Shown here one piece after another: positions 27,143 through 54,970 of a stretch of 64,000 nt of DNA. Made by a program: the position numbers and the translations under genes. Origin of the DNA: Polytrichum commune. Its lineage: Eukaryota; Streptophyta; Polytrichopsida; Polytrichales; Polytrichaceae. The notes under the pieces are model-generated. The model saw nothing but the letters and a program-made list of their open reading frames with translations. It ran no database searches and was not told the DNA's origin. Positions within the stretch are counted from its first letter, which is position 1; each line of letters begins with the position of its first letter. The stretch lies in assembly GCA_950295325.1 (NCBI GenBank), contig OX485809.1, forward strand, positions 27,900,001 through 27,964,000, given 5' to 3'.

Positions 27143-27144
27143 TA

Positions 27145-36171: not shown

Positions 36172-37306
36172 CCTAAGAGCCTCTAGTTTGTACAACCTAG
36201 AACCCCAAATGCAAACCCTAACAAGAATGGACAAGGTAGTCATTAAGGACTATTATCATATGACAACAATGGATGAAAACATAAATTAAGGAAAGCTAAT
36301 ACATCTATTGTCAAATATTCCTCTAAACCTTAGGTCCCCCTTTTGTGCACTTACCTTTACTTTAAAATTCCTAATAGCCTTTCTAAATGTACACACTAGA
36401 GAGAAATAACACCTCTCCCTTATGTATACTATGTACGTGAATGCCTCAAATAATACCCCTTCTTACACTCACATTAGTTTGTATGTTGTATGAAGAGTCC
36501 ACCCCCTGGGCATCACGTCATGACGTAACGTGATGGCCATGGGCCGTGTCATGTCAATTTTCACATCCTTTGCTCCCCCCACACTCCCACCCCGCCCCCG
36601 ATGAAGATAATGAACATTTGGGAAGACTCATTGCAATGTACAACTATATATTGACTTTGTGTTGCAACATGTGTTGGAGTCTACATTGCAACACAATTTG
36701 AGAAGATCCAATGATTTTCTCTGCCACTTTAGGTGCAGGCTTGATTTGGGGTGTTGTCCAAACCACTACATTTAATGGAAACTCTCAATGAGCAACATCC
36801 ACGTGCAAGAAAAGCTCCCTTGTTTTAGTCTTGGTGATTGGTACCTAGCATAACATTTATTTCCAAGCATTGCTCCTTCAAATGAAAGAAATTGTAATTG
36901 GACTTGCACATGTCTATTCGTTAAAGCATAATATAAAAATCTTCACGCTGAGTCGGGGTGGGAGGAGGTTTGGGGAGGCAAATGGTGACTTGGTGATGGT
37001 CTAGAATGTTGTGTTGCCAAAAGATGGCCCTTTAAATCACTGAGGATAAAATCACCAAACCTTGTTAAGCAATTCTCTATTTTTTCAAATTTTTTTTTCA
37101 CAAATTGAAAATTCAATTGCAAGAAAGGAACCAAAAAACAACCAACCCTGCAAGAACTTTCTAATGTATGTTTACATAATATTCAAGCATTCTAATTCAG
37201 AGGTAAGCACTAGGGAAAAGTGTAGCCTAGCGAATAGAGATGGCGAAGTGTGAATATTATTTCAGTTTGAGTATTAAAGATGTACATGTCTGTATTCTAT
37301 CCATGT
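36172..37306. other. Intergenic between the LTR element and the giant DNA transposon
   Basis: AT-rich, no supported ORF. At 36512-36537 is a palindromic cluster (ATCACGTCATGACGTAACGTGAT) that resembles the CGTCATGACG motif in the transposon's own subterminal DNA, although it lies outside the TIR. Confidence 0.5.
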
Positions 37307-37319
37307 GTTGTTTTCTGGA

Positions 37320-37427
37320 TAACATTACCCAACCCAATACTCTTAACTCCGGCGCGGAGTTTGATGCGGCTCCGATGCGGCTCCGATGCGGCTCCGGGGA
37401 GGTTCGGATGCTAGCTCCGGTGGGTTT
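37320..37427 (+). repeat. Left TIR of the giant transposon
   Basis: Matches the reverse complement of 53868-53952 nearly base for base. The left copy has an 11-bp unit (GATGCGGCTCC) three times where the right has it once, which accounts for most of the length difference. Confidence 0.9.
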
Positions 37428-37629
37428 GGGTGGGTGGGGGCAAAAATTGCCCCCTATTTTTTTGATTGGGTGGGGCCTTACTTGATCTCATAAGGGGCCT
37501 CCTAGAGTAATTTGGGGCCGTAGAACCCAAATTTAGCAAAAAAAAACCAAAAAAAGTCATCAAGGGGTCAAAACGGGGCAGGGTTGTCTATCGCGACGTC
37601 ATGACGGTGTCGTGCCGTCATGTCAGGTC

Positions 37630-37659
37630 GTGTCGTGACGGACCCCTCCGTCACGACAC
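37630..37659. repeat. Left subterminal hairpin
   Basis: Perfect 13-bp arms GTGTCGTGACGGA and TCCGTCACGACAC around a CCCC loop. The same CGTGACGG word recurs in the right subterminal region, so it may be a transposase-binding or end-recognition signal (inference). Confidence 0.85.
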
Positions 37660-37851
37660 AATAGGGTCCACGTAGGGTCAACATAGGGGGAATGGACTAG
37701 GGTGGGTAAAATACTTACCTTCTTGCCAAGGTGGCGTCCTATGTGGCAGAAAACGCCGACGTGGATGTGCATATTTCCCTTGCCAAGTAAACCATTTTGC
37801 CATTGTGTTTAGGGTTCTGTTAAAATCAAAGTAGAAAAATATGACTAAGGA

Positions 37852-38835
37852 AGGTGTGGGGCGGACGGTGGGGCGGACGGGAGAGGGGGGTGGTGCGGAC
37901 GGCGGAGGGGGGTGGTGCAGACGGCGGAGGGGGGTGGTGCGGACGGGGGAGGGGGGTGGTGCAGACGGGGGAGGGGGGTGGAGCGGACGGGGGTGGGGCG
38001 GACGGAGGGGGGTGGAGTGGACGGGGGTGGGGCGGACGGGGGAGGGGGGTGGAGCGGACAGGGGTGGGGCGGACGGAGGGGGGTGGAGCGGACGGGGGAG
38101 GGGGGTGGAGCGGACGGGGGAGGGGGTGGAGCGGGGACGGGGGTGGGGCGGACGGAGGGGGGTGGAGCGGACGGGGGAGGGGGTGGAGCGGACGGGGGAG
38201 GGGGGTGGAGCGGACAGGGGTGGGGCGGAAGGGGGTTGGGAACGGGGGGGAGAACGCTGGAGCGGACGGGGGAACGCGGGGGCGGACGGGGGGAACGCGG
38301 AGGGCTCCGTCCGCCCCAAGTTCCCTCACGTCCGCCCCACGTTCCCCCGCCGTGCGTTCACGTTCCCACACGTTTCCTAACGTCCGCACCCGTTCCCTAC
38401 CGCGTTCCCTCCCGTCCGCGCCCGTTCCCCCCCAGTCCGCACCCGTTCCCTTCCCGTCCGCCCACGTTCCCTCCCGTCCGCCCCACGTTCCCTCCCGTCC
38501 GCCCCACGTTCCCTCCCGTCCGCCCCATGTTCCCTCCCGTCCGCGCTACGTTCCCCTCCCGTCCGCCCACGTTCCCTCCCGTCCGCCCACATTCCCTCCC
38601 GTCCGCCCCATGTTCCCTCCCGTCCGCCCCATGTTCCCTCCTGTCCGCGCTACGTTCCACTCCCGTCCGCCCGCGTTCCCCTCCAGTCCGCCCCACGTTC
38701 CCCTCCCGTCCGCCCCATGTTCCCGTACGTTCCCTCCCGTCCGCGCTCCGTTCCCTTCCGTCCGCCCGTGTTCCCCTACGTCCGCCCCCTCGTTCCCTCC
38801 GTCCGCCCCCGCGTTCCCACGTTCCCCATACGTCC
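37852..38835. repeat. Minisatellite array 1, GCGGACG core, inverting midway
   Basis: Roughly 1 kb of units such as GCGGACGGGGGAGGGGGGTG on the + strand to about 38300, then the complementary orientation (CGTTCCCTCCCGTCCGCC) to about 38835. Strong strand asymmetry and long G runs give G-quadruplex potential. All frames appear open as Arg/Gly/Pro/Ser-rich peptides because the repeats lack stop codons; these are not genes. It ends directly before a TATA box and the kinase gene. Confidence 0.9.
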
Positions 38836-38894
38836 TTTTCGTGCCCCATGTCAAATCCGACCGGGATCCCATAATGATTGTGCTCCCCTTTGCC

Positions 38895-38902
38895 TATATA
38901 AA
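38895..38902 (+). promoter_or_regulatory. TATA box of the kinase gene
   Basis: TATATAAA about 60 bp after the end of array 1 and 225 bp before the kinase ATG. The pyrimidine-rich leader begins a few tens of bases downstream. Confidence 0.7.
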
Positions 38903-39126
38903 GCCGTGGGGTTTTAGTTCCCCTCACTTTCCTCTCCTCCCACCACAAAGGGACCCGAGACCTTGTTGCCGTCCCAAGGACAGCGGCACCGCACGGGTCT
39001 CAGGGGGTTTGGGAGGGCAGGGCAAATTGTGGGGAACCCTCGCAATTTTTTTTCCAGATTCACGCACTCATTTCTACATTCACTCACTCCTTTTTACATT
39101 CACTCACTCACGCGGTTTTTTTCACG

Positions 39127-41034
39127 ATGGAGGGGGAGGACATTGCTCCTTACCAAGACGAGGATACGAGGCTGCACCGTGCTTGGCTCCAAAGCACTCC
39201 ACTTGCGCATACTGGAGAGGGTACGGGAAGCGAGGCCGGAAGTGGAAGCACTGCAGCACGTCCCCCACGTCCAGATCCTTTTCGGTTTGACGAAGAGTTC
39301 TTTGCAGTTGGCCATTCAGGAGGCAACCAAACACGTGGAAGCCGTGGGAGTCGGGGAAACAGTGGACATAGAGGGAGAATAGGAAGGGGACCAAGCTCAG
39401 GCAGTTCCACCGATATAAATGCAGCCACTCATGGAGAGTCCGTGCCACCACGATCTCCGACACGGCGGACATCAAGACCGGAGAGCCCTGCACGTGATGT
39501 ACCTCAGGGTTCGGAGCATGGTGAAAGACGGGGACAAAAACGCCCAGCAATTTCGGAAGGGACGGAGGAGGGGTCCGGGGTTTCAGGTTCGCAATCGAGG
39601 AAAAGGAAAAATAGAGGCAAACGCGACCCGCGGATCGATGAGGCTCGAAACCATTGTAGGGTCGTGCTGTTGGAATGGTTTAGAAATAACAGCATGGTTT
39701 ATTTGGAAAAAAAATACCTCAATGATGGTACAAAGGGGTTGGATTTGGTGAGGAACGATTTGATTCTTATTCTCACGGAAGCCACGGCTGGAGCGGAGTT
39801 TGAAGATGCTAGGGGCATGAGCGATTGGGGCACCTGGATTGAACAACAAGCCGTGGAAGCAATCTACAATCCAACAATGGCATATGATGCTGTGCATCCT
39901 AGCGAGGGAAGTAGTAGTGGCAGGAAGTCCGAGCTGTACATGAAGCTAGAGAATTGGAAAAGAGGCGTAATAGCAGCAAAAGGAACATCCGCCCGCAACC
40001 TTCCCATTTTTATTGACAGGCAGATGGCAGACAACATTGCCACTCAGGGCCGGCAGGGTGTCATATGGTTGCCTAGGAATGCGGAGATCAAAGCCTTGGA
40101 TAAGGAAATCTTCCAAGGGACCTTCGGAGTGGTGCGGAGAGTCGCAATTCATGGAGCATCATTCATCCCTAGCTGGATAGAGTGGGCTGGGAAGACCATG
40201 AAGGCCACGAATAGTTTGGAGAATCGAAAGGAACGTTCAGTTGAAGCATTGGCGTGTCCAGTAGATCATCCTGGGGTAATCAAGCTACAATACCTCAATA
40301 TGAAAACATACGAATCCTATTCGATGTGGTGGAATGGAGGCTCCTTGAAAAACATGAGGATCTATGACTTCAGCGTTCCGGAAACCCACGAGCGCACAAT
40401 CCTTCACATGCCTGGGGCAGACTTTGAAGCACGGAAACGGTTGGTTGTATATCGAAGGCATCGAGCTTATTTGGCATGGGCTCTAATGTGCATTGTGGAT
40501 GTAGTGCACAAGCATGACGTGTTGCACAATGACCTTAATCCCAACAATGTCATGTTGCATTTCCCACAAGACCGTGAGAACACGGTTTACATTGGTGTGT
40601 GTGATTGGGGCATGGCATCATGGGGAGGTGAAGACGCACCCTCCAACTATGGAAAAAATTCAGTGGATGAGATGAACAAGCACAAAGCAAAATACAACTG
40701 TGCTGGTCCAGAATTATTCCATGTACGAGGGCAGCGTGGAACATCCACCTCTCCGGTGAGGATGGCTCAGAAACATAGGCACACGTTTCTATCGGAGTCC
40801 TTCTCAGTGGGTGCTTTGGCAAAGAAGATTTATGCCAGGGATGCGACTTCCCCCTTGTTTCAGCTAAACAGTGATCCAAATGGCTTGAATATGCGGTTTG
40901 AGTTAGCATTGGATTCATTGACGAAGACCAATCCAGCGGAAAGGTCAACCATCACACACGTAGTGAACATTTTGAAGTCCCCTCCATACAACATGGTTAA
41001 CCCGACAATGTGCTTCCGTGACACTGCAAAATAG
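39127..41034 (+). CDS. Protein kinase-like cargo gene, single exon
   Basis: 635 codons. The N-terminal 300 residues are Ser/Gly/Arg-rich with a basic cluster (RKRKNRGKRDPR) that may be a nuclear signal. Kinase motifs follow in order: glycine loop QGTFGVV near 328, candidate ATP-binding Lys in AGKTMKA near 355, catalytic loop VLHNDLNPNNVML near 466 (His-x-Asp and Asn both present, Arg of HRD replaced by Asn), DWG near 491 in place of DFG, and GPE in place of APE. Essential catalytic residues therefore appear intact, but the family is divergent. No transmembrane segment. It lies between array 1/TATA and an AATAAA at 41098. Being inside the giant TIR element suggests element cargo, perhaps acting on transposase or host chromatin proteins; that role is speculation. 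Confidence 0.85.
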   Translation: MEGEDIAPYQDEDTRLHRAWLQSTPLAHTGEGTGSEAGSGSTAARPPRPDPFRFDEEFFAVGHSGGNQTRGSRGSRGNSGHRGRIGRGPSSGSSTDINAATHGESVPPRSPTRRTSRPESPARDVPQGSEHGERRGQKRPAISEGTEEGSGVSGSQSRKRKNRGKRDPRIDEARNHCRVVLLEWFRNNSMVYLEKKYLNDGTKGLDLVRNDLILILTEATAGAEFEDARGMSDWGTWIEQQAVEAIYNPTMAYDAVHPSEGSSSGRKSELYMKLENWKRGVIAAKGTSARNLPIFIDRQMADNIATQGRQGVIWLPRNAEIKALDKEIFQGTFGVVRRVAIHGASFIPSWIEWAGKTMKATNSLENRKERSVEALACPVDHPGVIKLQYLNMKTYESYSMWWNGGSLKNMRIYDFSVPETHERTILHMPGADFEARKRLVVYRRHRAYLAWALMCIVDVVHKHDVLHNDLNPNNVMLHFPQDRENTVYIGVCDWGMASWGGEDAPSNYGKNSVDEMNKHKAKYNCAGPELFHVRGQRGTSTSPVRMAQKHRHTFLSESFSVGALAKKIYARDATSPLFQLNSDPNGLNMRFELALDSLTKTNPAERSTITHVVNILKSPPYNMVNPTMCFRDTAK

Positions 41035-41097
41035 ATTTTTTTTGTTTTTTTTGCAACAATTTTGAATCATACCAATTTTGTAACCGTTGGAGATATA

Positions 41098-41103
41098 AAT
41101 AAA
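41098..41103 (+). terminator. Poly(A) signal of the kinase gene
   Basis: AATAAA 64 bases after the TAG stop, in AT-rich 3' sequence. Confidence 0.6.
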
Positions 41104-43376
41104 GCCATCATTTTTTCATACAAAACTTGTATATTGTATGAGGTTTATGGATCTTAGTGCAATGTTCATACTACTCCATGAGGCCTTTGCTCCATAATCG
41201 AGAAGAAATCTATGGGAGGCTAACCAAGGTTCTCGCCTCTCGTGAGGCCACATCCTTCTTTCACATCGTTGTTATCACATCCATGTGCTAAGTTCAAGTT
41301 AACTATAGTTGTTTGTGATATGTCTTGAAAAAATGCAGTTACCTATATTTATTCTAATTTTGGTATGCCACAAAATGTAGTAAACTATAGTTATATCGGT
41401 TGTACACGTGATCCAAAACATCTCTAAATGTTATCTTTCTTCTACTCCCCACATATTGCACACTATAAATGTTAAACGTGTTAACAGTTAACAAAATGGT
41501 ACTCCCTTCTTTGTAAATCTGACTCTATAAACGTTAACGGATGAAATACAACCATAATATGGATGATAAAAACTACACATCCAGTTACATTGATTCATAT
41601 TCACTCGTGATTTGTAAACTTGATATTGAATAAAGTTTTGATTGGGTGTGCAATTTTATGAATGGTATTCTCTCACAAGGAATCTTCACAATTGCTTATA
41701 TTTATATTTATATAATTCACAATCATTTTTTTTTGGAAGTTTGGACATATTCTTGGCCGTCCAAGTGAAGAGGCCGTGCGATTAAGTGGCCCAACTTTGT
41801 TGATAGTCCAAAGAAATGAACTGAAAATAGCCAAGAAAATATAGTAAGGGTAGCCTTAGTTGGGCATAGTGTGAAGCCTCCAAAGGCCAAGCGCAAAGTC
41901 CAAACCTTTGGCCATGAACTCCCACGGCCTCTCGGCTTGGATGGCCAAAGTGTGAAGCCTCCAAAGGCCAATCCCAAAGTCCAAACTCAAAGGAGCATGC
42001 CACTTTATTCCTTGCTCAAAATAACCCCTCCAATCTAACGGCCAAGATCTTGTCAATGATTGATTATTTTAATGAAAAAAAAGTTCGGTCTCTCGACGGA
42101 AGTTTGGGTTGAGCATTTTGCTATACCCAATCTTTGTTCGAGAGGCCGAACTCTTGGCGCCATAACTTCCTAAAAGTGTTGCCACCTAGGCTCTTTTGGA
42201 GGCCACGTCCTTTGAACTTCGGCCTCTAGTGTGAAGGCCGAGAGGACGGACTTTGGGCATTTCAGCATTTTCATTGGTCCAAATGTCGAACCTCTTAAAG
42301 TTTGGCCATATTGTGAACCGGCCCTTATATTTGCAATACATGTCTTATTCTTTTTTTGGCACAAATTGAAAATTCAAATTGAAAATACAACCAACCCAGC
42401 CGAAACAGCGCAGCCTAAGTTGAAATCTAGAAATAATGCTCATTTGAGGCCTATCCTTCCAAGTAGGGACTAAGTTGCTACGGGTCACAATAAGACCTTT
42501 GACCCCCCAAATCAAATCAAATTTGTTAAGAATGTCATGGTAGGCCACGTCCGGGGCTTTTTCCAAGTCCCTAAGCATCTGTTTCCATTCAATCCTCCCA
42601 TACTCTGATTTGTAATACATGTCATAAAAACTAATGCAATTATTGTTTTGAAGTCTACCATCAAATGATATGTAAGATCGTATGTTCACTTGTGGTTGGT
42701 TCTTTTTATGTACCAGTTTAAGCCAATACTAAAATAAAATAAACCTTATTCTATAAAATCTAATGACACTACCATACAAGTTAGTAGAGATGTTGTATAT
42801 TTTTTAAAATTATTCTATATATTTACATAACTACAACTTATAATTTTGTGAAGAATAATACATAATACAACAAAGTTCAAATCAATACCTCTTTTGTGCA
42901 CTCACATATACTCATACGGATTTAGTATAGTGCACCCCCCCCAAATGATCACTAATGTGGGCCACATTAAATTTAAGCCCACACCAAATCCCTAGTTTAA
43001 TATCAATGTGGACCATATTAATTTGCTTTTCTAGAATGTTCTAATTTGTGTAAGGTGTTGGTAAGATATCTTTATGAAGCCTATAGGAACTCGGGGGATG
43101 CACTCTACATTATGTTTGAGAATCACGTGCGTTCATGACCCCTTCTAAAAACCCCAATGTATACCATAAGTTATATGTCTAAGTAGAGATTGTGCCAACT
43201 TGAAGTAGTCCTCGCGATTTGCGAACGTTTAACTTTCGTTGTAGGCATCGTAAAAAAAAGCGGGTGGGTTCGTTGGAAAGCTGGGAACCTAAACCCTCAA
43301 ACCATGTATGGAAACACTTCTACATGAGTGAGAGAACAAAACAACGGCACATATGTGGTAGCAATTTGGAATGACG
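41104..43376. other. AT-rich interior of the giant element with repeat fragments
   Basis: No supported gene. Two copies of a segment starting GTGTGAAGCCTCCAAAGGCC occur at 41869 and 41950 (81-bp spacing). An imperfect foldback (GTTCGGTCTCTCGA near 42082 against its complement near 42134) is present. Fragments of the 735-bp TIR family lie at about 42720-42937 and 43092-43170. Confidence 0.5.
42720..43170 (-). mobile_element. Two fragments of the 735-bp TIR family
   Basis: The complement of 42720-42937 matches the left half of the 14626 element (GTGCACTATACTAAA, GAGTATATGTGAGTGCAC). 43092-43170 reads as the complement of its right end (CTCGGGGGATGCAC, AATCACGTGCGTTCA). The order shows two different truncated copies rather than one. 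Confidence 0.6.
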
Positions 43377-43414
43377 TAGGGTTTAGGGTTTAGGGGTTTA
43401 GGGTTTAGGGTTTA
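43377..43414. repeat. Interstitial telomere-type repeats (TTTAGGG)
   Basis: Five consecutive TTTAGGG-type units, one with an extra G. This is the common land-plant telomere repeat. It is internal to the giant transposon, immediately before an 80-bp tandem array. Confidence 0.85.
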
Positions 43415-43425
43415 TGAACTACAAA

Positions 43426-43740
43426 GGTTGAAGCACAAATATGTGAATTGTCGAATGAAAGGGCAAGGGAATGCGTGTGGGTTGTAAAACCATACGAACC
43501 ACTAAGGTTGAAGCTCAAATATGTGAATTGTTGAATGAAGATGACATTCGGATGCCTAATATGCGTTGTAAAACCATATGGACCACAAAGGTTGAAGCAC
43601 AAATATGTACTTTGTTGAATTAATATGACATTCGAATGCGTGTGGATTGTGAAACTATACGAACCACTAAGGTTGAAGCTCAAATATGTGAATTGTTGAA
43701 TGAAAAGACAACCCATCAAATATAGAAGCTTCAAAGAGGT
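43426..43740. repeat. Tandem repeat, four units of 80-84 bp
   Basis: Units start GGTTGAAGC at 43426, 43506, 43590 and 43671 and share CAAATATGTGAATTGTTGAATG and a CATACGAACCAC-type segment. A Ser/Phe-rich frame on the - strand is a by-product of the repeat. Confidence 0.85.
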
Positions 43741-43960
43741 TTCCAATGCGGGTGTCGGGGGACTTTTTCAAAAAGTGCAACTAACTTTTTGACTTCACCA
43801 ACTTTCTTTTTATTCCTATTGTGTTGTCTTTATCCTACCAACGAGAATTGGATCCTCTACATCTTGGATTACATCAAATATTGTATATTTCATAAAGTCC
43901 TTTGAGCTCAATATATAAGTAGAGCATTTAGACTCATACATATAACGAGGGTAGAGTATC

Positions 43961-44584
43961 ATGGATAGGATGGGAGAGAAGAGAGACATGTTTGAGGGTC
44001 TAGGATGTGATGAGGAGATAGAAAATTTAGGTGAACCCGATATTCCATTCAATCCATCAACCGAGCGTGAGAGAGATGAGAGATGTGCTAGGGATCGATT
44101 TCGTGATGAGTATGTCATGACTCCCTTCTCACAATCTACACAAGCTTGGAGGATGAGGGCGGAGGAGGACCAACGACGATATGCGGACAACTTTGAGATC
44201 GATGCGGTGGAGAATGACAACACACAATGCGTGGGTGGAGATCTAAATGATCTGATTGATTTGTGTGCGGATATTTTGGAGAAGCCCGGGGATGTGGATG
44301 TGGAGGAGACTTCAATCGACATTGAAGATGTCAAGGTAGCGGAAGAATCTTCAAGGACTTTGCCTTTTCGTAAGAAGAAGAGAGGATTATCGCCTCATCG
44401 GCTACCATTGAAGGAACGGATGAAAGACCGAACGATTAGCTATGTTGATTACTTCGACCGAATCCTCTCCAAAAAATGGACCCTCGACGGAAGCCACAAG
44501 CATCTACGAGGTTGCCATGACGGAAGTCAAGTTGACGGAATGAAGTGGAATATTAAATCGTGCATGGTTTGTTCATGTATGTGA
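43961..44584 (+). CDS. Small acidic hypothetical protein
   Basis: 207 codons with ordinary amino-acid composition and no low-complexity bias, so possibly real. Acidic (NLGEPDIPF, LIDLCADILEKPGDVDVEE), then a basic patch (FRKKKRG). No family recognised. It lacks the array-plus-TATA promoter that precedes the other three genes of the element and may belong to a nested insertion or be a fragment. Start codon uncertain. Confidence 0.4.
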   Translation: MDRMGEKRDMFEGLGCDEEIENLGEPDIPFNPSTERERDERCARDRFRDEYVMTPFSQSTQAWRMRAEEDQRRYADNFEIDAVENDNTQCVGGDLNDLIDLCADILEKPGDVDVEETSIDIEDVKVAEESSRTLPFRKKKRGLSPHRLPLKERMKDRTISYVDYFDRILSKKWTLDGSHKHLRGCHDGSQVDGMKWNIKSCMVCSCM

Positions 44585-44984
44585 TTTATAAAGGGCATTT
44601 GTACCGTCGTCGCAATAATAAAGTCATTACTTGTACATCGTTGTCTCCATAGGGGTGATAATTTGTTGGTCATCATACTACATTGGTTACTTTGTTGCTT
44701 GAGGGATCCTTCATTAGTTTTGTGTGGATAAGTACACCGGTAATGATATTTAGTGTCACATATATTATTTGCAAAGGGCCTAAGTTAGATGGGGTGCGGA
44801 TGGAGGGACGCGGGAATGTGCAGTAGAAATATTATTGCATATTCATGTAGAGGACTTCATTACCTATCCATGGATACCAAGAAATCATTTTTTGGACTTC
44901 ATATGAATTTTTGAGAGCCAAAAAACCGAGACTATGTCCAAACTTCCAAAAAAAGTTAAAAAGTGCAGATTCAAAGGAACTCGG

Positions 44985-45882
44985 GAGCGGACGTATGGGA
45001 ACGCTAGAGCGGACGCAGGGGAACTCTAAAGCGGACGTAGGGGAACATGGGGCGGACTTATAGGAACGTTGGAGCGGACGTAAGGGAACATGGAGCGGAC
45101 GGGGGGGGGGGCGGAAGGGGGGGGGGGCGGGTTGGAGCGGACGGGGGGAACGCGGGAGCGGACTGAGGGGAGCGGACGTAGGGAACGAGGGGGCGGACGT
45201 AGGGAACGAGGGAGCGGACTGAGGGGAGCGGACGTAGGGAACGAGGGGGCGGACGTAGGGAACGAGGGGGCGGACGTTTGGGAACGGGTGCGGACGGGGG
45301 CGGGAACGGGTGCGGACTGGGGGGAACGCGGGGGGCGGACGTAGGGGACGTTTGGGAACGGATGCGGACGTTTGGGAACGGGGGCGGACTGGGGGGAACG
45401 TGGGGGGCGGACGTAGGGGAACGGGTGCGGACTGGGGGGGAACGGGCGCGGACGGGAGGGAACGGGTGCGGACTGGGGGGAACGCGGGGGGCGGACGTAG
45501 GGGAACGGGTGCGGACTGGGGGGGAACGGATGCGGACGTTTGGGAACGGGTGCGGACTGGGGGGAACGCGTGGGGCGGACGTAGGGAAACGGGTGCGGAC
45601 TGGGGGGGAACGGGCGCGGACGGGAGGGAACAGGTGCGGACTGGGGGGAACGCGGGCGCGGACTGGTAGGGAACGGGTGCGGACTGGGAGGGGAACGGGC
45701 GCGGACTGGAGGGGAACGCGGGGGGCGGACGTAGGGGAACGAGTGCGGACGGGGGCGGGAACGGGTGCGGACTGGGAGGGGAACGGGCGCGGACGGGAGG
45801 GAACGGGTGCGGACTGGGAGGGGAACGGGCGCGGACGGGAGGGAACGGGTGCGAACAGGGTGGGAACGGGGAGCGGATGGAG
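44985..45882. repeat. Minisatellite array 2, GCGGACG core
   Basis: About 0.9 kb of G-rich (+ strand) units such as GCGGACTGGGGGGAACG, GCGGACGGGAGGGAACG and GCGGACGTAGGGGAACG. Core and spacing resemble arrays 1 and 3. Higher-order blocks repeat (for example around 45410-45500 and 45590-45680). Long open frames in both strands are artefacts. Confidence 0.9.
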
Positions 45883-45885
45883 GGG

Positions 45886-45893
45886 TATATAAG
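45886..45893 (+). promoter_or_regulatory. TATA box of the RING-like gene
   Basis: TATATAAG directly after the last unit of array 2 (within 5 bp), about 475 bp before the first ATG of the downstream gene. Confidence 0.7.
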
Positions 45894-46360
45894 TGGAGGG
45901 GACCACTTACATACCCCACTCCACTCCTTGTGGGCGCCCGGACGACCCTCCTCTACTACAGAGTGCGGGGTTTAGCGGGGTGCTCGGAGGAGTTAAGGAT
46001 CCCTTTTTTGGGATCCTTTTATACTTTTTTTACTGACCTGTTTGTGGGTGTGATCCACGTGGACCCGTTTCCTTGTGACGTGGCATATTGCCTTTTTGGC
46101 ATATTCCTTGTGACGCGCCCAGTCAACTGGCCTCTGCGTGAGCGCTGGTAGCGGGGTGCTCGAAGGGTATGCTGAATTTTTGTAGTTTAATTTTTAACGA
46201 CATTTTTGAACTAATTCCACAGCAACACTATTTTGAAGTGTATGCTTGGATGTTTTGTAGCACTATTATGAAGTGCAATTAGTAATTTAAAAATTAGAGT
46301 TCTAGATTAGAATTAGAAACTACAATTTGGGTGGATCCGGCAAGTGAAGGATTTCCAGAC

Positions 46361-48664
46361 ATGGCAAGTGGAGGATCTAGAGACATGGCAAGTGCAAGTG
46401 GAGGATCTGGAGACATGGCAAGTGGGGGATCAGGTTGTCACAGATCACATGTACGCAAGGCCGCTGGGTTGGAGTGGGATGTTTATGATGACAACACTCA
46501 AAAAGCCAGGGCAGGTTGGGAGAATGTACCACAACCGTGGTCAGTGAAGACTGCAATGCAGTACGTGGGTTTCCCTCACTTTGATCGGTTGTGGCCAAGA
46601 CCTTGTCACGAGCGACACTGCAAGGCCATCAGTGCGAGTTATATGCAGCTTGATGACGTGGAGGCAAAATGGAGATTCCTAACGATACTTAGAAGTATCT
46701 CCAATTTGGATAGATGGCCCAAGAGTGCAATTCCAAAGTCGGTGGCGTGTATGATGTATGCGGAGCACGTGTTGCGAGTTAGGGTGGATTGGTCAAGTTT
46801 AGCTACCCTGCATGGTCAAAAATTTGGGGGTATCGGAATTGCATTCACTAAATGCACAGTTCCAGATATTCCATACACTCCCGTTCCGGAGTGGTTCAAG
46901 AGGAATCCTCGACTAGTGGACGAGCCTGGGGCCCCAATTCCAGAGGGTCGGGAACCAAAAAAACCACGTAATCGTAAACGACCAGCCAATGACGTGCAGA
47001 TGGCCATCGAGGAGGCGTTTGAGCATATGGATGAGGGCATGGAGGCAAATGTCGAGGTCAACAACCTGATCAACGACGTGGTTAACGAGGTCCTAGACGA
47101 GGTAAACCTTGGTGAACATGGAGTGGACCCGACGGAGAGCAGAATGGAGGAATTGCGTAAGCAACATGCGTTGGAAATTCGTGAGTATAAAACGATGATT
47201 TTCGAGTTGGAAAATCGAGTTGCAACACTTACGATGGAGGAGGCTAGCAGTTCAAGTAGTACACCAATTAACCTTCAGTCTTTGGAAGCAGAGAGGGACG
47301 CAGCTTTACAGGAGGCCAAGATTGCAAAGTCACAAGCTCTGGAGGTATGTATGAGGAATGAAGTAATGCGAGGAAAGATGGAGGCTTTGCAAAAGGAGGT
47401 GGTGGACATGCAACAACAACTTCAAGTGGTCAATGAAGTGGTTGTTGATCACGAAGCCAAGATTGGCGGACTGGAGGAGCAGAATGCAAGGTTGAAGAAA
47501 TTTCTGTTGGATGCGATTGTGGAGCGCAAAAATATGAAGACAAGCACATTGCTTGCTATGGCCAAGGCTCATCAATTTGAAGCTGAGTTTGAGAGCATCC
47601 AGAAAGAATGGAACCGCAATCAGAGAATGCGGAATATGATGCTCACATCATGGCCAGAAGATGAGCAGATGTACCCTAGTAGGTGGGATAGGGATAATGA
47701 GTGGACATTGCCAAGCGGGAGCATCGATTGGCGTCAAGTGACCGACCCAGATCACCATTGGGATGTGACCCAAGTGCATGAATATCCATTCCGCATGAGG
47801 GGTGAGTTGTTATGGCCAAATCCACATACAATGGTCTTCGACAGAACCGCATGTGCGATTTGCCAATGTCCATTTGGCCCAGAGGGATGCTATCAAGTTG
47901 GATCATGTGGGGCCCAATTCCATCCACAATGTCTAATAGGGAATATGATCAAGAAACGCCAATGTTCTCATTGCAGATCACCCTTCCACCCTCGTTTGTG
48001 CCTCCAATTTGGCCTTCGGGATTACATGCCTAACGACTGGGTATTAAAGCCATGGGACTTTCCCTTCGATCTTCAAGAGTTTGATGGAGAGAATGTTGAA
48101 TGGAGTTGGTTATACAATTGTGCCAAGGTTGAGCTATGGCACGAGAACAGAGATGGCGACTGGACACGGAATGCACGTCAAATTTTGTATGTTGCAGACG
48201 AGTTGTATCCCAACAAGCCCCCCGATCATGGCTTGAAAAGATTTTTGTACCAAACTCTTGAATGGCATTGGGATTCAACCAGCAGACAATTAAAGAGAGG
48301 CATTCATCCTCCTTGGTACAATGCAGCAGGTCTCGAATCAGTATCGGAGCATGATTTGGAAGAAGATGCAGATGACATGCCTACGGAACGGGATCCGAGA
48401 TATGAATTGCAGTTAGAGGTGGGGTACCACAAGAACAGGCTGCAGTTGGCTGCAATTGATGCACTCTTGCATAGAGTTGCGGATGATGTGGTATTGAGAT
48501 GGCTAAATGGTGGGCCTAGACCACGTAATGCCGTTCCATTGTCTCCTGGTAGTCGTCCATACCTCACCCGTGGAACAACGCGAAGCATGGAAGCGGGGGA
48601 ATCATCACGAGCACGACGAGAATCTACTTCAGCTAGAATAGACCTCGATTCAGATTCGGATTAG
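46361..48664 (+). CDS. Coiled-coil protein with RING-like zinc-binding domain (cargo gene)
   Basis: 767 codons from the first in-frame ATG at 46361; the same frame is open upstream to at least 46331 without an ATG. Begins with MASGGS-type repeats. Basic patch near residue 205 (KKPRNRKR). A long heptad-like helix spans about 260-420 (LEAERDAALQEAKIAKSQALE). At about 496-550, a Cys/His cluster CAIC...GSCGAQFHPQC...CSHC fits a RING or RING-variant zinc domain (C-x2-C, C-x4-H-x2-C, C-x2-C). The tail ends in an acidic RIDLDSDSD. Domain order coiled coil then RING is seen in some E3 ubiquitin ligases, but ligase function here is inference. Single exon; lies between array 2 and the transposase, convergent with it. 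Confidence 0.8.
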   Translation: MASGGSRDMASASGGSGDMASGGSGCHRSHVRKAAGLEWDVYDDNTQKARAGWENVPQPWSVKTAMQYVGFPHFDRLWPRPCHERHCKAISASYMQLDDVEAKWRFLTILRSISNLDRWPKSAIPKSVACMMYAEHVLRVRVDWSSLATLHGQKFGGIGIAFTKCTVPDIPYTPVPEWFKRNPRLVDEPGAPIPEGREPKKPRNRKRPANDVQMAIEEAFEHMDEGMEANVEVNNLINDVVNEVLDEVNLGEHGVDPTESRMEELRKQHALEIREYKTMIFELENRVATLTMEEASSSSSTPINLQSLEAERDAALQEAKIAKSQALEVCMRNEVMRGKMEALQKEVVDMQQQLQVVNEVVVDHEAKIGGLEEQNARLKKFLLDAIVERKNMKTSTLLAMAKAHQFEAEFESIQKEWNRNQRMRNMMLTSWPEDEQMYPSRWDRDNEWTLPSGSIDWRQVTDPDHHWDVTQVHEYPFRMRGELLWPNPHTMVFDRTACAICQCPFGPEGCYQVGSCGAQFHPQCLIGNMIKKRQCSHCRSPFHPRLCLQFGLRDYMPNDWVLKPWDFPFDLQEFDGENVEWSWLYNCAKVELWHENRDGDWTRNARQILYVADELYPNKPPDHGLKRFLYQTLEWHWDSTSRQLKRGIHPPWYNAAGLESVSEHDLEEDADDMPTERDPRYELQLEVGYHKNRLQLAAIDALLHRVADDVVLRWLNGGPRPRNAVPLSPGSRPYLTRGTTRSMEAGESSRARRESTSARIDLDSDSD

Positions 48665-49363
48665 GCATTTTTGTACCATGTTTAGGAAGTTGTATGGGAA
48701 CGGATGAAGACTTTGGACACAATGAACATATTTCATGTTCAAAGTATATGTAATATAAAGAGGATTTACCGACAAGTTGTCAACTCTAAGATCGTGTAAA
48801 AGATAACATATGGATGCCACATGTTTTAATGTTACTTGAAACATTTAAAAACTTACTTGAATATTAGTAATTCATATGATAGTCTAACCAAAAGTACTAT
48901 TGACTACATAGTCAATATTGAATACCACATAAAAATATAATTATATAAAACGGATAGAAAGGTCCTCAAAAAGAGGATGTCACCAACGAAGCATGTACAA
49001 TCGAGCAATAGGGGATTGCAATATTTATAAAAGCATATTCTTTAAGAAGCTCAATAAATAAACATAAAACTCCATTCACAGTAAGAATTATACAAAATAG
49101 TAATTAATAAAGGCATAACATGTTATTGGAGATTAATTGCAATGCTAAGTTGACAACCATATTGTATTTTCAAAATTTTAAAAAACATGCAATAAATAAT
49201 TTTATTACTATAATAAAATGTTACAACTTCGAAGGTAACGTTCGCTTTGTGGTCTAAATGTCTTACCGAAGGCCCTAAGGTTGTAACTTGTATCAATTTT
49301 GACGTAAGTAATAAATTATGGAAGTACGTGGGAGCACTGAAATACCACATTTGTGCAAAACCA
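48665..49363. other. Convergent 3' region between the RING-like and transposase genes
   Basis: AT-rich. AATATAAA-type sequence near 48750 may serve the + gene. TTTATT at 49201-49206 reads as AATAAA on the - strand, about 160 bases after the transposase stop. No other gene seen. Confidence 0.5.
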
Positions 49364-52300
49364 TTACGTTCGAATCCGTACTGTGGGATCATTTGCTTCG
49401 ACACATCTTGGGTCCTCTTCAGACTCGTCTGTGCTGCAATCATCATCCGTTTGGGGAGTCGCGCTCCGAAGATGCAACTCTCGGTCACGTTGTGAGAAAA
49501 TTATCTTCTTGGTCGGCCGGGAGCCCTCTGCATCCTGTATGCCATTTTCATCTAGATGTGGTCTACCTTCATCTTCATTGTAGTCTTCAGCAGTAAACGG
49601 AAGCGATCTTCCCTGATACCTCTTCCTAGTACGTTTGACACCTCTCGTAGTTCTCTGACGCCCTCCACCCGTACCACGACTTGAGTGCACTTCATCTCTA
49701 CTTCCATCTATAAAAGCATCCCCCGTTGTACTTCCGCCTCCAACTCCAAGGCCACATGTTCCATTGGATTGACTGTGTGGAAGTGAAACTGATGCGGATG
49801 GAATTGCAATTGGTATGTTCTCAACAACATGTCGACGAACAGAATGACGACGTGGCGCCTCTGTAGTAACATTTCTTGAAACATTGTGTATAGCAACCAA
49901 AGTAGCACCCACCGCAGTTGCACGTGAAACACCCAATCTAGAAGTATTGGCAATACTTCGAGTGAGAGGACGACGTTGACCTTGTGCATGCACTTGCACC
50001 GTAGAGGTTGATGCAGTTCTTTGAAGAGCACGGAATCGAGTTGTAGGTATTTCAGGAACATTGGGTGTTTGATCTTCTATACGATGGTTGGATATGAGGG
50101 AGGCGTCCATGGATTCAGAATGTACTCGGGCTGGAAATGGATCCTGTTGAACGTGCGTTAGCTCATTTGCGGGTAGTACATTGTCACCTTCACCAAAAGA
50201 AAGAGAATCGCTCCGAGGTTGCAAGGAATCTACTTCAATTCCTACATTCTCACTTGCCCCCATAGCAACATTATGGGCAGGGCGAAACCCTTGTCCAATG
50301 TGGAGAGTTTCAAAAGGCGGTCTTCCAATAGACCCCTCATGATCGTCATGCATTCCGTCGTTATGTTGGGGGACATCCGGTTCATCAAAATCAAACACCC
50401 CAAGGTTTCCATCACTACCATTGCCATCCTCATCTTCTGAATCATGATTCTCGGAATCGAGGTCATCCAAATCAAAGTCGATGTCATCAACATTGTTGTC
50501 AACATCATTTCCGGCACTATCATTTGGATCCACGTCATCTTTGTTGTCATCTTCTTCGTCAAGGTCATCGTCAGAATGGACCTCATTCAATTCGTACCAT
50601 TGCGCAGGTCTTGGGCCCCTCCGATGTCGAATGAGCCTACTATTGGTATATATGTAGACGAGGTCCTCGACACGACTATGCTTCAAGCGATTGCGACTCT
50701 TGTTGTGAACATATGAGTACATGCTCCAATTGCGTTCACATGCGGATGCGGAACATACTTGTGCAAGGATACGTCTTGCTATTGTTTGGAGGGCTTTAGC
50801 TCCACCTCCCATTGCATCCCACCATTCATGGAGAGGTGCGGCATGCACGCTCGGGTCAGTAGAATCAGCAAAAGGCCCTCGATTTTCAAGGAAATCTTGG
50901 TACTGGTGGAGGATTTGGACATAAGTGTCCTCATCTTGAGCAAGCCTGCGAAGAACTCGATTTAGGATTGTCCTCGAATTCTCATCCTCATGGAGTGGGG
51001 CCCAACCACGTAGAAGCGGATTTAACATCGCTCCAGCCCAATGTAGATCATTCAACATCAACCTCCATCTATTTTGAAACGTTAGCATAGCATTTACAGC
51101 AAGCTCAGGGCTTAAGCGAAATGGAGGTTTACCGAATCCACGAATATGGGTTTGTAAATCATGCATGACCCTCCAAGCCATTCCCATTGCAGGCGCCTTG
51201 CCATCAAATACACGAAGAGCTTTAACAACCGGGATCACCATATACAAGAAATTTTCGCACGTGTTCCAGAATCCATCAGAACGTATAAAGCTTCGCACAG
51301 CAGAGCCCTTCATGTAAGAGGTGCGAGATCTCCTCCTCATATCACGCATTAGAGTAGGCCAATCCTCATCAACCACCATTCTTTCCAAAGCATTGCGTAC
51401 TTGAAGAAGACGATCTATCATGATGAAGTTCGTTGCAAAACGGGTCTCTACAGGTAGGCGGAGTGAGAGATTTGGTGACAACCTCCGGAATATAGCTTGA
51501 GAAGCATGATGGTTTTTGATAAAAACACAAATATGGCGCGCCTTTTTTACCAACTTTTTCACCCATTCCTCCTTCCCCCAATCTTCTAAGAGGAGATCTA
51601 GGCAATGCGCAGCACATCCTTGAAAATATAGATCGGGATTTGCTTGAATCAAGTCGCGAGCAGCGGAGGCCATAACTGGGGCATTGTCGGTGCAAATCTG
51701 GACCACATTATGTCGACCAACCTTTTCCACAAATGGTTGAATTTGAGCAGCAACGTATACATGATCCTTGTGATTTCCCGTGGTATCAATGGTACCCAAG
51801 AAAACATCTCCCTTTGTGCCGCATTGGAGAACGTTTAGGAGAGGTCGGTTTTGCACGTTGTCCCATCCATCACAACATATTGTAACACCGTATTTTTCAA
51901 CGGAATTCCCCATCTTCTCCTTCACTTGCCTATCTAGGTCAACCTTTTTATCAGTTAACAACTTCGTACGGATGGCATTGTACGATGGTGGTGTGTAGGC
52001 TGGCATTCGATGACGGGCAGTTTCACGCACAGCATGAATAAATGCAGGATGTCTCACAATGTTGAAAGGAATGTTAGCTTCATAAAAAGCCGTTGCCCAT
52101 GCTCTATCAAGGAGTTGTTTTGTTGACACATTGAACCCCTCCGTTATGTTGAGTTGACGTAGTTCACGAGGAGGTGTGCCATATATCACAACATCAGAAT
52201 GTTGAGTGGATTGGGACATAAGCAAAGGCTCTGTTTCACTAATTACGGAGTCCGCTATAATAGGCTCCAGAGGTACAATATCTGGCACCGGAGAGTCCTC

Positions 52301-52561
52301 ATTTACAATGCCTACATGTAAGGGCACAATGCCTCCGCAATGTTCAAACAAGACCCTAATATGCGGGGGTACCATCCTACATGTGGAAACATCACAAGCA
52401 CCCCCTACAGGAGGTCTATAACCAAGGTGGGCCAACATTCTATTTCCTCGGTAAGATATGACGAACAGGCAAAACCTACATTTAACCTGCCTTTGTGATT
52501 TACCGGGAACCATCCCCTTATCCTCGTACCAATGATCCCATGCATCATTTCGGCGTGGCAT
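49364..52561 (-). CDS. hAT transposase (BED finger, DUF659, hAT C-terminal domain)
   Basis: About 1,065 residues from ATG at 52561; the frame opens at 52591, but a TTTGCAG acceptor (ending at 52576 on the - strand) indicates a leader intron. Near the N terminus, CRFC...CDVSTC with an intervening His (about 28-60) fits a BED-type DNA-binding finger. DUF659-like region about 215-390. Catalytic-type acids of hAT enzymes are in place: Asp in CCDGW near 230, Asp in CTDNAP near 291, and Glu in ACERNWS near 609. The dimerisation region (WWDAM...SRLIRH) follows. An unusually long C-terminal extension of about 400 residues is first very acidic (DDLDEEDD, DLDDLDSE) then Ser/Arg-rich with a basic stretch (KRTRKR). 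No frameshift or internal stop: the gene looks intact. Confidence 0.93.
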   Translation of the reverse strand: MPRRNDAWDHWYEDKGMVPGKSQRQVKCRFCLFVISYRGNRMLAHLGYRPPVGGACDVSTCRMVPPHIRVLFEHCGGIVPLHVGIVNEDSPVPDIVPLEPIIADSVISETEPLLMSQSTQHSDVVIYGTPPRELRQLNITEGFNVSTKQLLDRAWATAFYEANIPFNIVRHPAFIHAVRETARHRMPAYTPPSYNAIRTKLLTDKKVDLDRQVKEKMGNSVEKYGVTICCDGWDNVQNRPLLNVLQCGTKGDVFLGTIDTTGNHKDHVYVAAQIQPFVEKVGRHNVVQICTDNAPVMASAARDLIQANPDLYFQGCAAHCLDLLLEDWGKEEWVKKLVKKARHICVFIKNHHASQAIFRRLSPNLSLRLPVETRFATNFIMIDRLLQVRNALERMVVDEDWPTLMRDMRRRSRTSYMKGSAVRSFIRSDGFWNTCENFLYMVIPVVKALRVFDGKAPAMGMAWRVMHDLQTHIRGFGKPPFRLSPELAVNAMLTFQNRWRLMLNDLHWAGAMLNPLLRGWAPLHEDENSRTILNRVLRRLAQDEDTYVQILHQYQDFLENRGPFADSTDPSVHAAPLHEWWDAMGGGAKALQTIARRILAQVCSASACERNWSMYSYVHNKSRNRLKHSRVEDLVYIYTNSRLIRHRRGPRPAQWYELNEVHSDDDLDEEDDNKDDVDPNDSAGNDVDNNVDDIDFDLDDLDSENHDSEDEDGNGSDGNLGVFDFDEPDVPQHNDGMHDDHEGSIGRPPFETLHIGQGFRPAHNVAMGASENVGIEVDSLQPRSDSLSFGEGDNVLPANELTHVQQDPFPARVHSESMDASLISNHRIEDQTPNVPEIPTTRFRALQRTASTSTVQVHAQGQRRPLTRSIANTSRLGVSRATAVGATLVAIHNVSRNVTTEAPRRHSVRRHVVENIPIAIPSASVSLPHSQSNGTCGLGVGGGSTTGDAFIDGSRDEVHSSRGTGGGRQRTTRGVKRTRKRYQGRSLPFTAEDYNEDEGRPHLDENGIQDAEGSRPTKKIIFSQRDRELHLRSATPQTDDDCSTDESEEDPRCVEANDPTVRIRT

Positions 52562-52791
52562 GACTTCAACAAAACCTGCAAATAAAAACAAGTTAGAGCA
52601 AGTAACTTTGATCGCATACTAGGTCCTGTTCAAGAGTGCCACAAGGGCAACCCTAATTCACAGTCACTAGATTGGACAAAGTATCCTCTGCATTCGGGTC
52701 TCACGCATTCAATCCTCACTCCTCAAAGGAGATTCAAAAGACTTGAGACACACTATGTTAGTGGAGGCAAAAATGGCACCTTGAACCCTCA

Positions 52792-52798
52792 ATTTATA
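52792..52798 (-). promoter_or_regulatory. TATA box of the transposase gene
   Basis: TATAAAT on the - strand, 231 bp upstream of the ATG and about 15 bp from the start of array 3. This mirrors the layout of the kinase gene. Confidence 0.65.
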
Positions 52799-52811
52799 GT
52801 ATTCGAATCGG

Positions 52812-53612
52812 ACTGGGGAGCGGACGGAAGGGGGGGGGGAGCGGACGGGGAGCGGACGGAGGGGGGGGGGGGACCGGACGAGGGAGCGGACGGACGGGGG
52901 GGAGCGGACGGACGGGGGGGAGCGGACGGACGGGGGGGAGCGGACGAGGGAGCGGACGGACGGGGGGGGAGCGGACGGGGGAGCGGAAGGGGGAGCGGAC
53001 GGACGGGGGGGGAGCGGACGGGGGGGAGCGGACGGGGGAGCGGAAGGGGGAGCGGACGGACGGGGGGGAGCGGACGGGGGGGCGGACGGGGAAGCGGACG
53101 GAGGGGGGGGGGGAGCGGACAAGGGAGCGGACGGGGGGGCGGACGGAGGGGGGGGGGAGCGGACAAGGGAGCGGACGGGGGAGCGGACGGACGGGGGGGA
53201 GCGGACGGGGAAGCGGACAGAGGGGGGGAGCGGACGGGGGGGCGGACGGGGGGGCGGACGGGGGAGCGGAAAGGGGAGCGGACAGACGGGGGGGAGCGGA
53301 CGGGGGGGCGGACGGGGAAGCGGACGGAGGGGGGGGGAGCGGACGGGGGAGCGGACGGACGGGGGGGGGGGCGGACGGGGGTGGGGCGGACGGAGGGGGG
53401 TGGAGCGGACGGGGGAGGGGGGGGGGCGGACGGGAGAGGGGGGAGCGGACCGGGGGGGGGGGGGGGACGGGAGAGGGGGGAGCGGACGGGGTTGGGAACG
53501 GGAGCGGACGGGGGGGAACGGTGGCGAACGGGGATTGTGAACGGGAGCGGACGGGGGGGAACGGGGGCGAACGGGGGTTGGGAACGGAGGCGGACGGGGG
53601 GGGCGGACGGGC
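52812..53612. repeat. Minisatellite array 3, GCGGACG core
   Basis: About 0.8 kb of short units GAGCGGACGGGGG and GAGCGGACGGACGGGGG (+ strand), ending in longer GGGAACGGGAGCGGACGG units near the right TIR. G-rich on the strand opposite the transposase. The Arg/Gly- and Pro/Ser-rich reading frames across it are not genes. Confidence 0.9.
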
Positions 53613-53761
53613 TCTAGTAAATTTTTCCCCACTTTACCTTTACTTTGCTGACATGTCATCACACGTGGACATTGTAAATCCTACGTGTCAGAAATGGGTT
53701 AATGTAATTACACAAAAAAATCGGTAAAATTCAAGTCCGTCAGGATAAAGACAGCATCCGG

Positions 53762-53830
53762 CATAATGTCGTGACGGATACGTGTCGTGACGGCACGACA
53801 TTATGTCGGGATTACCCTCCGTCACGACAC
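53762..53830. repeat. Right subterminal hairpin cluster
   Basis: CATAATGTCGTG (53762-53773) pairs with CACGACATTATG (53794-53805). GTGTCGTGACGG (53782-53793) pairs with CCGTCACGACAC (53819-53830). The shared CGTGACGG word is the counterpart of the left subterminal hairpin. Confidence 0.8.
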
Positions 53831-53867
53831 AATAGACAACCCTGAAACGGGGAGGGCCAGAAAAATG

Positions 53868-53952
53868 GACCCACCGGAGCTGGCATCCGAATCTCCCCGG
53901 AGCCGCATCGAACTCCGCGCCGGAGTTAAGAGTATTGGGTTGGGTAATGTTA
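53868..53952 (-). repeat. Right TIR of the giant transposon
   Basis: Reverse complement of the left TIR, containing one GATGCGGCTCC unit. Ends ...GGGTAATGTTA, followed by GG and the 12-bp direct repeat. Confidence 0.9.
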
Positions 53953-53966
53953 GGGTTGTTTTCTGG

Positions 53967-54970
53967 CCCATTACATGACATGCCACACATTCCACTCACT
54001 CTTGCTTGCTTGCTAAGCTCCTTTCAATGACCGTATCCGATTCTTGGCCCCATGCTTTTGCTCACCCTAAGAAAAGACTTGGGCATGGGGAATAAGCTTG
54101 GATTGGGACAGCTAGGTGATGATGTGAGGCATTGGACCAACACTTTAAGCTAGTATGCACAAACATATGTCTATGTGGTTGATATAAAATTGCACATTCA
54201 TATCATCCTTTGGGCTAAATATAGGTGTGAAGTCAAGACAAATATATTTCTAGCCTCAATTGAATATTTGATGAATATTCAAAGTCAAATCCACTAGCTT
54301 TCTGAAAGCCATCCCTAGGTCACGTGTATGACAATCTTGCATATGATGAGGCTCTCCACCTTCATTGCCTAGAGTCAACACAAGATTATCTAGAACCAAT
54401 AAACATAGTTGGGTATTAGCCCCAATCTAGATCAAAGCCTAGCTAGTAACGGTGTGCAAAGTCACATGGCCACCTCCTTCGTCCCACTCAATTCGGTTGC
54501 AAAACCGTCATCTTGCATCTTGGGTACCAACCCCCTAGCATCCCAAGTACTAACCCCCTTTGTGCTTTGTGGGCCTATATCCTTGGCTTTGTGAATAGAT
54601 GGCTATAACGGTCCCCCCCCATGAATAGAATGGCTAGAAGAGGTACTTATGAACCACTCTAGAGTCTAAACCCACCTTGGAAAGGGAAGCTATCTATGAT
54701 GATGTCCAAGTTTGTGACCTTGACCTTGATGCCTAAATGGATCCAGTGTAGACAAGCTAGCATATTCTCGATAAACTACTTTTAGCTTTAATATTTATAT
54801 ACTAGTATGAAATAAGCCCATTGGTTCTCAATCCCTCATCTGGGAGTGGACCCATGAAGAGTTTAACAAATTGTCATGATATAAATAAAAACTCACTTAC
54901 AAAAATTACTTGTGTTGATGAATAGTTTCATATTGGCAATAAGTGGACACGACACTTTGAGACCTCTAGG
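53967..54970. other. Intergenic flank, no gene seen
   Basis: Moderately AT-rich unique-looking sequence with an eight-C run near 54612. No coding frame is supported. Confidence 0.4.

Follow-up and report, generated by a model that had tools for sequence, protein, structure and literature searches.

A 16.3-kb hAT transposon of Polytrichum commune enclosing protein kinase and RING-domain genes, probably as standing accessory genes

What are a protein kinase gene and a RING-domain gene doing inside a hAT transposon, when elements of this superfamily are typically small, one-gene units of a few kilobases with short terminal inverted repeats (TIRs), an 8-bp target-site duplication (TSD) and subterminal repeats? 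The question is raised by a 64,000-nucleotide stretch of Polytrichum commune DNA (contig OX485809.1, positions 27,900,001 to 27,964,000), called the window below and numbered from its first letter. Here, a single hAT unit very probably encloses a transposase gene, a kinase gene and a RING-domain gene. We conclude, with a probability of roughly 0.68, that the kinase and RING genes are no one-off cargo but belong to a hAT lineage as standing accessory genes, because relatives of the encoded proteins appear to be paired on two other contigs and because the three genes have a common type of upstream array. For the same reasons, "cargo", the term used in a preliminary description of this DNA, is probably the wrong word.

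The ends of the element and its nesting in a shorter one

The preliminary description had placed the ends of the transposon at near-identical TIRs flanked by a 12-bp direct repeat. Both features are real. An outer inverted pair of 70 nt (37320-37389 and 53883-53952) is 90% complementary, and once two surplus GATGCGGCTCC 11-mers in the left TIR are disregarded, 84 positions of these TIRs align with 3 mismatches. The 12-bp direct repeat GTTGTTTTCTGG is perfect (37307-37318 and 53955-53966). What they bound, however, is not the hAT but a short element resembling a miniature inverted-repeat transposable element (MITE). The hAT spans 37579-53844 (16,266 bp). Its TIRs, CAGGGTTGTCTAT, match at 13 of 13 bp, start at 37579 and 53844, that is 259 bp (left) and 108 bp (right) inside the outer TIR starts, and are directly abutted by a perfect 8-bp TSD, AAACGGGG (37571-37578 and 53845-53852). 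The usual start of a hAT TIR is (C/T)A(G/A)NG. As a control, we collected, across the window, all inverted 13-mer pairs separated by more than 500 bp: of these 893 pairs, 640 touch the GC-rich arrays described below and 253 do not, and identical outer 8-mers flank two, one of which is the pair of inner hAT ends. In addition, the word GTCGTGACGG occurs exactly five times in the whole window, each time within 80 bp of an inner end.

Excision of the hAT together with one 8-bp copy leaves a 362-bp MITE-like unit carrying the outer TIRs, so that the short unit, the TIRs and the 12-bp direct repeat of the outer element are all present. The simplest reading is that the hAT inserted into this older 362-bp element. 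Such nesting explains both duplications, and the 12-bp repeat is no longer odd for a hAT; its interpretation as an unusual hAT duplication was dropped once the inner 8-bp duplication had been found. Likewise, the outer TIRs were ruled out as hAT ends by the inner TIRs and their perfect TSD. The large element with transposase, kinase and RING genes that was first described thus stands, with hAT-type ends and an 8-bp TSD of its own, and its 16.6-kb coordinates were approximately right, but they cover two nested elements. Five words of the outer TIRs had no exact copy beyond the two TIRs within the 64-kb window. An alternative in which the outer TIRs and the 12-bp repeat bound an element from a different superfamily, with a hAT transposase inside it, is in our view extremely improbable. 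The outer TIRs are indeed longer than the inner ones and the repeat flanking them is perfect, but a hAT-type transposase is accompanied here by hAT-type inner ends with a perfect 8-bp duplication, the spacing between TIR and 12-bp repeat is unequal on the two sides (1 versus 2 bases), and a compact unit remains after removal of the hAT.

From left to right, the locus is organised as follows (strand given where the feature has one):

37307-37318: 12-bp direct repeat GTTGTTTTCTGG, left copy, flanking the outer MITE-like element
37319-37578: outer MITE-like element, left part; TIR at 37320-37425, including the 2 extra 11-mers GATGCGGCTCC
37571-37578: hAT TSD AAACGGGG, left copy
37579-37591, + strand: hAT TIR CAGGGTTGTCTAT, left
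37632-37657: subterminal repeats GTCGTGACGG, left, in both orientations; two of the window's five exact copies
37867-38818: array 1, GC-rich tandem array of 17 GCGGAC then 22 GTCCGC, upstream of the kinase gene
38895-38901, + strand: TATA-like site following array 1, upstream of the kinase gene
39127-41034, + strand: protein kinase gene, a single open frame of 635 aa
41728-44954: possible nested element with a 29-nt inverted repeat (41728-41756 and 44926-44954), 93% complementary
44984-45870, + strand: array 2, GC-rich tandem array of 40 GCGGAC, upstream of the RING gene
45886-45892, + strand: TATA-like site following array 2, upstream of the RING gene
46361-48664, + strand: RING-domain protein gene; ATG at 46361, with the frame extending upstream to a GTG at 46331
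49364-52561, - strand: hAT transposase gene with DUF659 and Dimer_Tnp_hAT domains; ATG (MPRR...) at 52561
52792-52798, - strand: TATA-like site following array 3, upstream of the transposase gene
52809-53602, - strand: array 3, GC-rich tandem array of 43 GCGGAC as read on the + strand, upstream of the transposase gene
53768-53828: subterminal repeats GTCGTGACGG, right; the other three of the five exact copies
53832-53844, - strand: hAT TIR, right, the reverse complement of CAGGGTTGTCTAT
53845-53852: hAT TSD AAACGGGG, right copy
53853-53954: outer MITE-like element, right part; TIR ending at 53952
53955-53966: 12-bp direct repeat, right copy

The three genes and their upstream arrays

To characterise the three proteins, we searched a protein collection for relatives, scoring the candidates that share most words with each query (7990 for the kinase, 7998 for the RING protein, 7385 for the transposase); among these, 78 kinase, 12 RING and 55 transposase relatives were retained. 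Residue conservation was counted over all of these homologs plus the window protein. Alignments joined the window protein with 27 of the 78 kinase, 11 of the 12 RING and 22 of the 55 transposase homologs; members of the kinase and RING alignments were scanned for domains, and identities of domains and linkers were compared in 4 relatives per protein.

The transposase had been described as apparently intact, and this holds: its frame is open from a TTG at 52591 to 49364 on the - strand without interruption (1075 aa), and it matches PF04937 (DUF659) at 2.9e-35 (121.6 bits, cut-off 34.7) and PF05699 (Dimer_Tnp_hAT) at 9.3e-11 (41.8 bits, cut-off 21.4). We take D241, D302 and E619 to be the catalytic D/D/E residues, by comparison with Hermes, which the protein matches weakly over the C-terminal domain (E 0.5). 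D241 is an aspartate in 51 of the 56 sequences (4 gaps, 1 N), D302 in 52 (3 gaps, 1 N), and E619 is a glutamate in 55. By its transposase domains, D/D/E residues, 8-bp duplication and TIRs, the element belongs to the hAT superfamily. The kinase-like and RING-like single open frames both lie inside the inner ends, in agreement with the enclosure first described.

The kinase gene encodes a protein in which the presumed functional residues are largely kept: counted over the window sequence and its 78 homologs, G331 and K356 are each conserved in 78 of 79, D469 in 73 (4 N, 2 gaps), N474 in 76 and D493 in 74. We take these to be the glycine-loop Gly, the VAIK Lys, the catalytic-loop Asp and Asn, and the DFG Asp, respectively. 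The motifs themselves read HND in place of HRD and DWG in place of DFG, and a pair of tryptophans at residues 401-402 is present in all 79 sequences. PF00069 was detected at 0.01 or better in 27 of the 28 scanned alignment members (best 7.8e-12). The structure model reached a mean predicted local distance difference test (pLDDT) score of 70, and its fold search against the PDB returned protein kinases. Since matches to predicted structures of viral kinases (best E 1.5e-8) and to solved, mostly cellular kinases (2.3e-8) are about equally strong, they do not decide on a viral origin of the kinase.

The RING-domain protein is encoded by an uninterrupted frame of 777 aa (46331-48664, + strand). 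The zf-RING_2 domain was found in 11 of the 12 alignment members, at best with 4e-9, and the RING profile matches the RING of RNF38 at 2.4e-6. Seven zinc ligands are kept in 12 of 12 sequences with letters at these positions, the thirteenth row being a gap. The N-terminal half of the protein gave no Pfam domain at E of 0.1 or below.

For each of the three proteins, conservation against distant relatives is higher in the domains than in the linkers. The kinase shares 59.4% identity with its relative P0022 over residues 311-635 versus 27.0% over residues 1-165; the RING protein shares 67.8% with P0086 over residues 501-560 versus 38.8% over residues 201-430; and the transposase shares 71.5% with P0095 over residues 201-660 versus 29.3% over residues 661-1000. 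The RING protein and its closest relative, P0079, differ little from region to region (86.5-98.6%, with 90.0% in the RING itself).

The three genes are also alike in what lies upstream. The hexamer GCGGAC or its complement GTCCGC occurs 122 times within the 3,134 bases of the three arrays versus 11 times in the remaining 60,866 bases of the window. Each array is followed, on the strand of its gene, by a TATA-like site, 89, 50 and 22 bp past the last unit for arrays 1, 2 and 3; judged by the density of such sites, the probability that stretches of these lengths contain one by chance is 4.8, 2.7 and 1.2%. The start codon of the RING gene lies 475 bp past its TATA-like site, those of the kinase and transposase genes 232 and 237 bp past theirs. 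This arrangement suggests that arrays and TATA-like sites act as promoters of a like build, through which the three genes may be co-regulated.

Between the kinase and RING genes, the possible nested element at 41728-44954 probably contributes about 3.2 kb of the 16.3 kb of the hAT; inspection of its borders by eye revealed no target duplication. An open reading frame (ORF) within it, 43961-44584, had no Pfam match and was not adopted as a fourth gene of the hAT, as it sits within this probable nested element. The same segment carries telomere-like TAGGGTT repeats beside an 84-bp tandem repeat of 3.6 copies (43377-43710).

Relatives on other contigs and the weighing of explanations

The best full-length relatives share 84% (kinase), 93% (RING) and 93% (transposase) identity with the window proteins. 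The transposase relatives with a named source come from seed plants (Cryptomeria, Taxus, Rhodiola and Saponaria; 25-32%). Two kinase relatives, P0070 and P0077, belong to the moss Ceratodon purpureus (25 and 24%), and two others come from metagenome-assembled genomes, P0032 from a lichen fungus, Gyalolechia sp. (51% over 61% of the query), and P0055 from a Bacilli bacterium (33%); the latter two may be stray sequences that entered the bins, or may mean that such kinases occur in a broader set of hosts. Relatives were listed as 90% clusters, with one contig size per cluster, and some clusters are large (kinase P0013, 73 members; RING P0090, 85; transposase P0100, 96), which would fit a multi-copy family or could reflect repeated assemblies.

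Contig sizes link the relatives in two cases. Kinase P0022 and transposase P0095 lie on contigs of equal size, 15,563 bp, with 43% and 55% identity to the window proteins, and kinase P0025 and RING protein P0089 on contigs of equal size, 476,656 bp; across the two pairs, identity to the window proteins ranges over 43-59%. No other contig size is shared across the kinase, RING and transposase lists, contigs of 10 kb or less included. P0022 and P0095, 43% and 55% identical to the window proteins, apparently lie together on a single 15.6-kb contig, so the association of kinase and transposase looks older than the hAT copy studied here. DNA of related elements was sought in two further collections: scans of viral_contigs with the proteins or the alignments (single-protein scans with the RING protein and the kinase) yielded no locus, nor did scans of genome_contigs with the kinase alignment and with a TIR word.

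Several observations weigh against the conclusion that the kinase and RING genes are standing components of a lineage. The linkage of relatives is read from equal contig sizes. No single other contig carries all three genes among the listed relatives, and the pairs number two, though 19 kinase, 3 RING and 13 transposase clusters have a contig above 10 kb. Two close relatives on long contigs, RING protein P0079 (93%, 25,222 bp) and transposase P0092 (89%, 22,056 bp), are without an equal-sized partner in the lists; their partners may be hidden in another 90% cluster, which we did not count as support. The hAT unit itself is known from one copy, that in the 64-kb window. Regarding the proteins, the window sequences taken alone score under the curated cut-offs, the kinase with 27.5 bits for PF00069 (cut-off 31.7) and the RING protein with 20.0 bits for zf-RING_2 (cut-off 27.3), and the RING structure model is poor (pLDDT 46). 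Moreover, ligand position 528 of the RING is A or G in 10 of the 12 sequences with a letter there and H in 2, so that ubiquitin-ligase activity of this protein is not assured. C520 is present in 11 of 12 sequences, including all 10 that have no histidine at 528, and is absent only from P0087, which has H528; from this pattern, C520 may stand in for the missing histidine as a zinc ligand. Finally, TATA-like sites are common (24 in 37300-54000 over both strands), and the word GGGAAC occurs 27, 36 and 4 times in arrays 1, 2 and 3, its scarcity in array 3 meaning that the arrays are alike, not the same.

How do these points bear on the other explanations? One is that the kinase and RING genes are passengers, captured by this copy from the host or another genome and having no role in transposition. 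hAT elements can carry captured genes, such as the histone H3-like copies described for the fungus P. fijiensis in the available part of PMC6710886, and both the single copy in view within the 64-kb window and the unpartnered long contigs of P0079 and P0092 would suit a capture. Against this, kinase relatives share a contig size with a transposase relative and with a RING relative at 43-59% identity, so the association looks old; catalytic residues are kept in most of the 78 kinase relatives, and GCGGAC arrays stand upstream of all three genes. We regard capture by this copy as unlikely. Another explanation is a composite assembled by nesting, in which the kinase and RING genes stem from another mobile element while the transposase and ends of the hAT have a separate origin. 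The locus is indeed rich in nesting, with the hAT in a MITE-like element and a probable nested element in the hAT, and a further group of four ORFs, accompanied by dispersed repeats, is found at 2040-8057. A single pair of ends with a single 8-bp duplication nevertheless surrounds all three genes, the GCGGAC unit is common to their arrays, and a kinase-transposase pair apparently exists on one 15.6-kb contig elsewhere, all of which makes a composite very unlikely. The reading as standing accessory genes of a hAT lineage is the one that we retain.

Possible roles, neighbouring sequences and known systems

As a potentially autonomous element, the hAT at 37579-53844 would move by cut-and-paste, catalysed by the DUF659/hAT transposase that it encodes; the probable recognition sites of this enzyme are the 13-bp TIRs and the subterminal GTCGTGACGG repeats. 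The kinase and RING genes would be expressed from promoters built like that of the transposase, a GC-rich array followed by a TATA box. The RING protein might then ubiquitinate the transposase or a host factor involved in silencing or regulation, and the kinase might phosphorylate the transposase or a chromatin or repair factor. That the two proteins help the element to express and transpose in its host through such activities is possible, if rather doubtful; we favour control of transposase activity or stability together with relief from host silencing. A tentative proposal, somewhat short of an even chance, is that of a giant multi-gene plant hAT lineage that permanently carries kinase and RING genes under shared array promoters, as a dedicated phosphorylation-plus-ubiquitin system controlling the transposase or disarming silencing, a counterpart of the VANC proteins of VANDAL transposons without being related to them. 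A hAT lineage that keeps such genes would mean that cut-and-paste elements can evolve signalling enzymes of their own. It would also let one test how transposons act against silencing in plants, and would give kinase and RING genes a way to increase in number in plant genomes and inflate gene-family counts.

The window contains further elements. A 735-bp element at 14626-15360, with 13-bp inverted ends CTCGGGGGGTGCA and an 8-bp duplication ATTTTAAG, is the other of the two control pairs among 893; by eye, the word ctcgggggatgca near 43090 in the hAT resembles its ends. At 1373-6799, 16 copies of a palindromic repeat, GTTTGGGTCG..CGACCCAAAC, are dispersed among four ORFs (2040-8057), one of which encodes a NIF-type phosphatase (PF03031, 7.5e-16); the repeats and ORFs together may belong to a further large element with several genes, truncated at the edge of the window. 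A Ty3-type long terminal repeat (LTR) retrotransposon with a gag-pol frame of 1948 aa occupies 25330-36166, and because its LTRs (25330-27142 and 34354-36166) are identical at 1812 of 1813 aligned positions, it appears to be a very recent insertion. About 6.4 kb past the hAT, a probable BELL-type homeodomain gene with at least 2 exons (60222-63219) matches POX at 8.4e-6 (26.8 bits versus a cut-off of 27.0) and Homeobox_KN at 3.3e-4, also under the cut-off; BELL-type homeodomain genes are plant genes. Together with the Ty3-type retrotransposon, this gene marks the DNA as eukaryotic and as probably that of a land plant. Rfam at the gathering threshold gave 0 matches over the whole window.

With its DUF659 and Dimer_Tnp_hAT domains, short TIRs, 8-bp TSD and subterminal repeats, the element resembles the hAT superfamily of the Ac, Tam3 and Hermes type, but it differs from a typical member in its size, 16.3 kb versus a few kilobases, and in its two further genes. 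Among the matches listed, the closest described hAT with an extra gene is that of the fungus P. fijiensis, a DUF659 element of about 9.5 kb with histone H3-like copies, a 20-bp TIR and, as here, an 8-bp TSD (PMC6710886, available part). Its extra gene is a captured housekeeping gene, and the available part of that article identifies no other domains or repeats, hence neither a kinase nor a RING protein nor arrays (PMC6710886). Teratorn and Starships likewise combine a large unit with genes besides the mobility enzyme, but, as far as the accessible text goes, Teratorn uses a piggyBac-like enzyme and measures 41-182 kb (PMC6431247), and Starships use a tyrosine recombinase and reach about 700 kb. 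In its accessible text, that review of giant eukaryotic transposons (PMC6431247) contains neither the whole word "hAT" nor words beginning with "kinase". The tyrosine-recombinase captain that is the hallmark of Starships had no Pfam match in the 11 scanned ORFs of the window, 4 of them in the hAT. No hAT with kinase and RING genes appeared among the literature matches listed, in a search that covered few subscription journals or preprints and had Repbase outside its scope.

VANDALs are Mutator-like, and the proteins of the hAT described here are unrelated to theirs. VANDALs nevertheless share several traits with the present element: they are DNA transposons of plants, they encode an accessory protein, and their noncoding parts contain tandem repeats of short motifs (PMC10398659, accessible part). 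VANC proteins bind these tandem repeats and induce loss of silent marks, so that plant transposons can relieve silencing by proteins of their own (PMC10398659, same part). A protein encoded by the hAT may bind the GC-rich arrays in the same way as VANC binds the VANDAL repeats.

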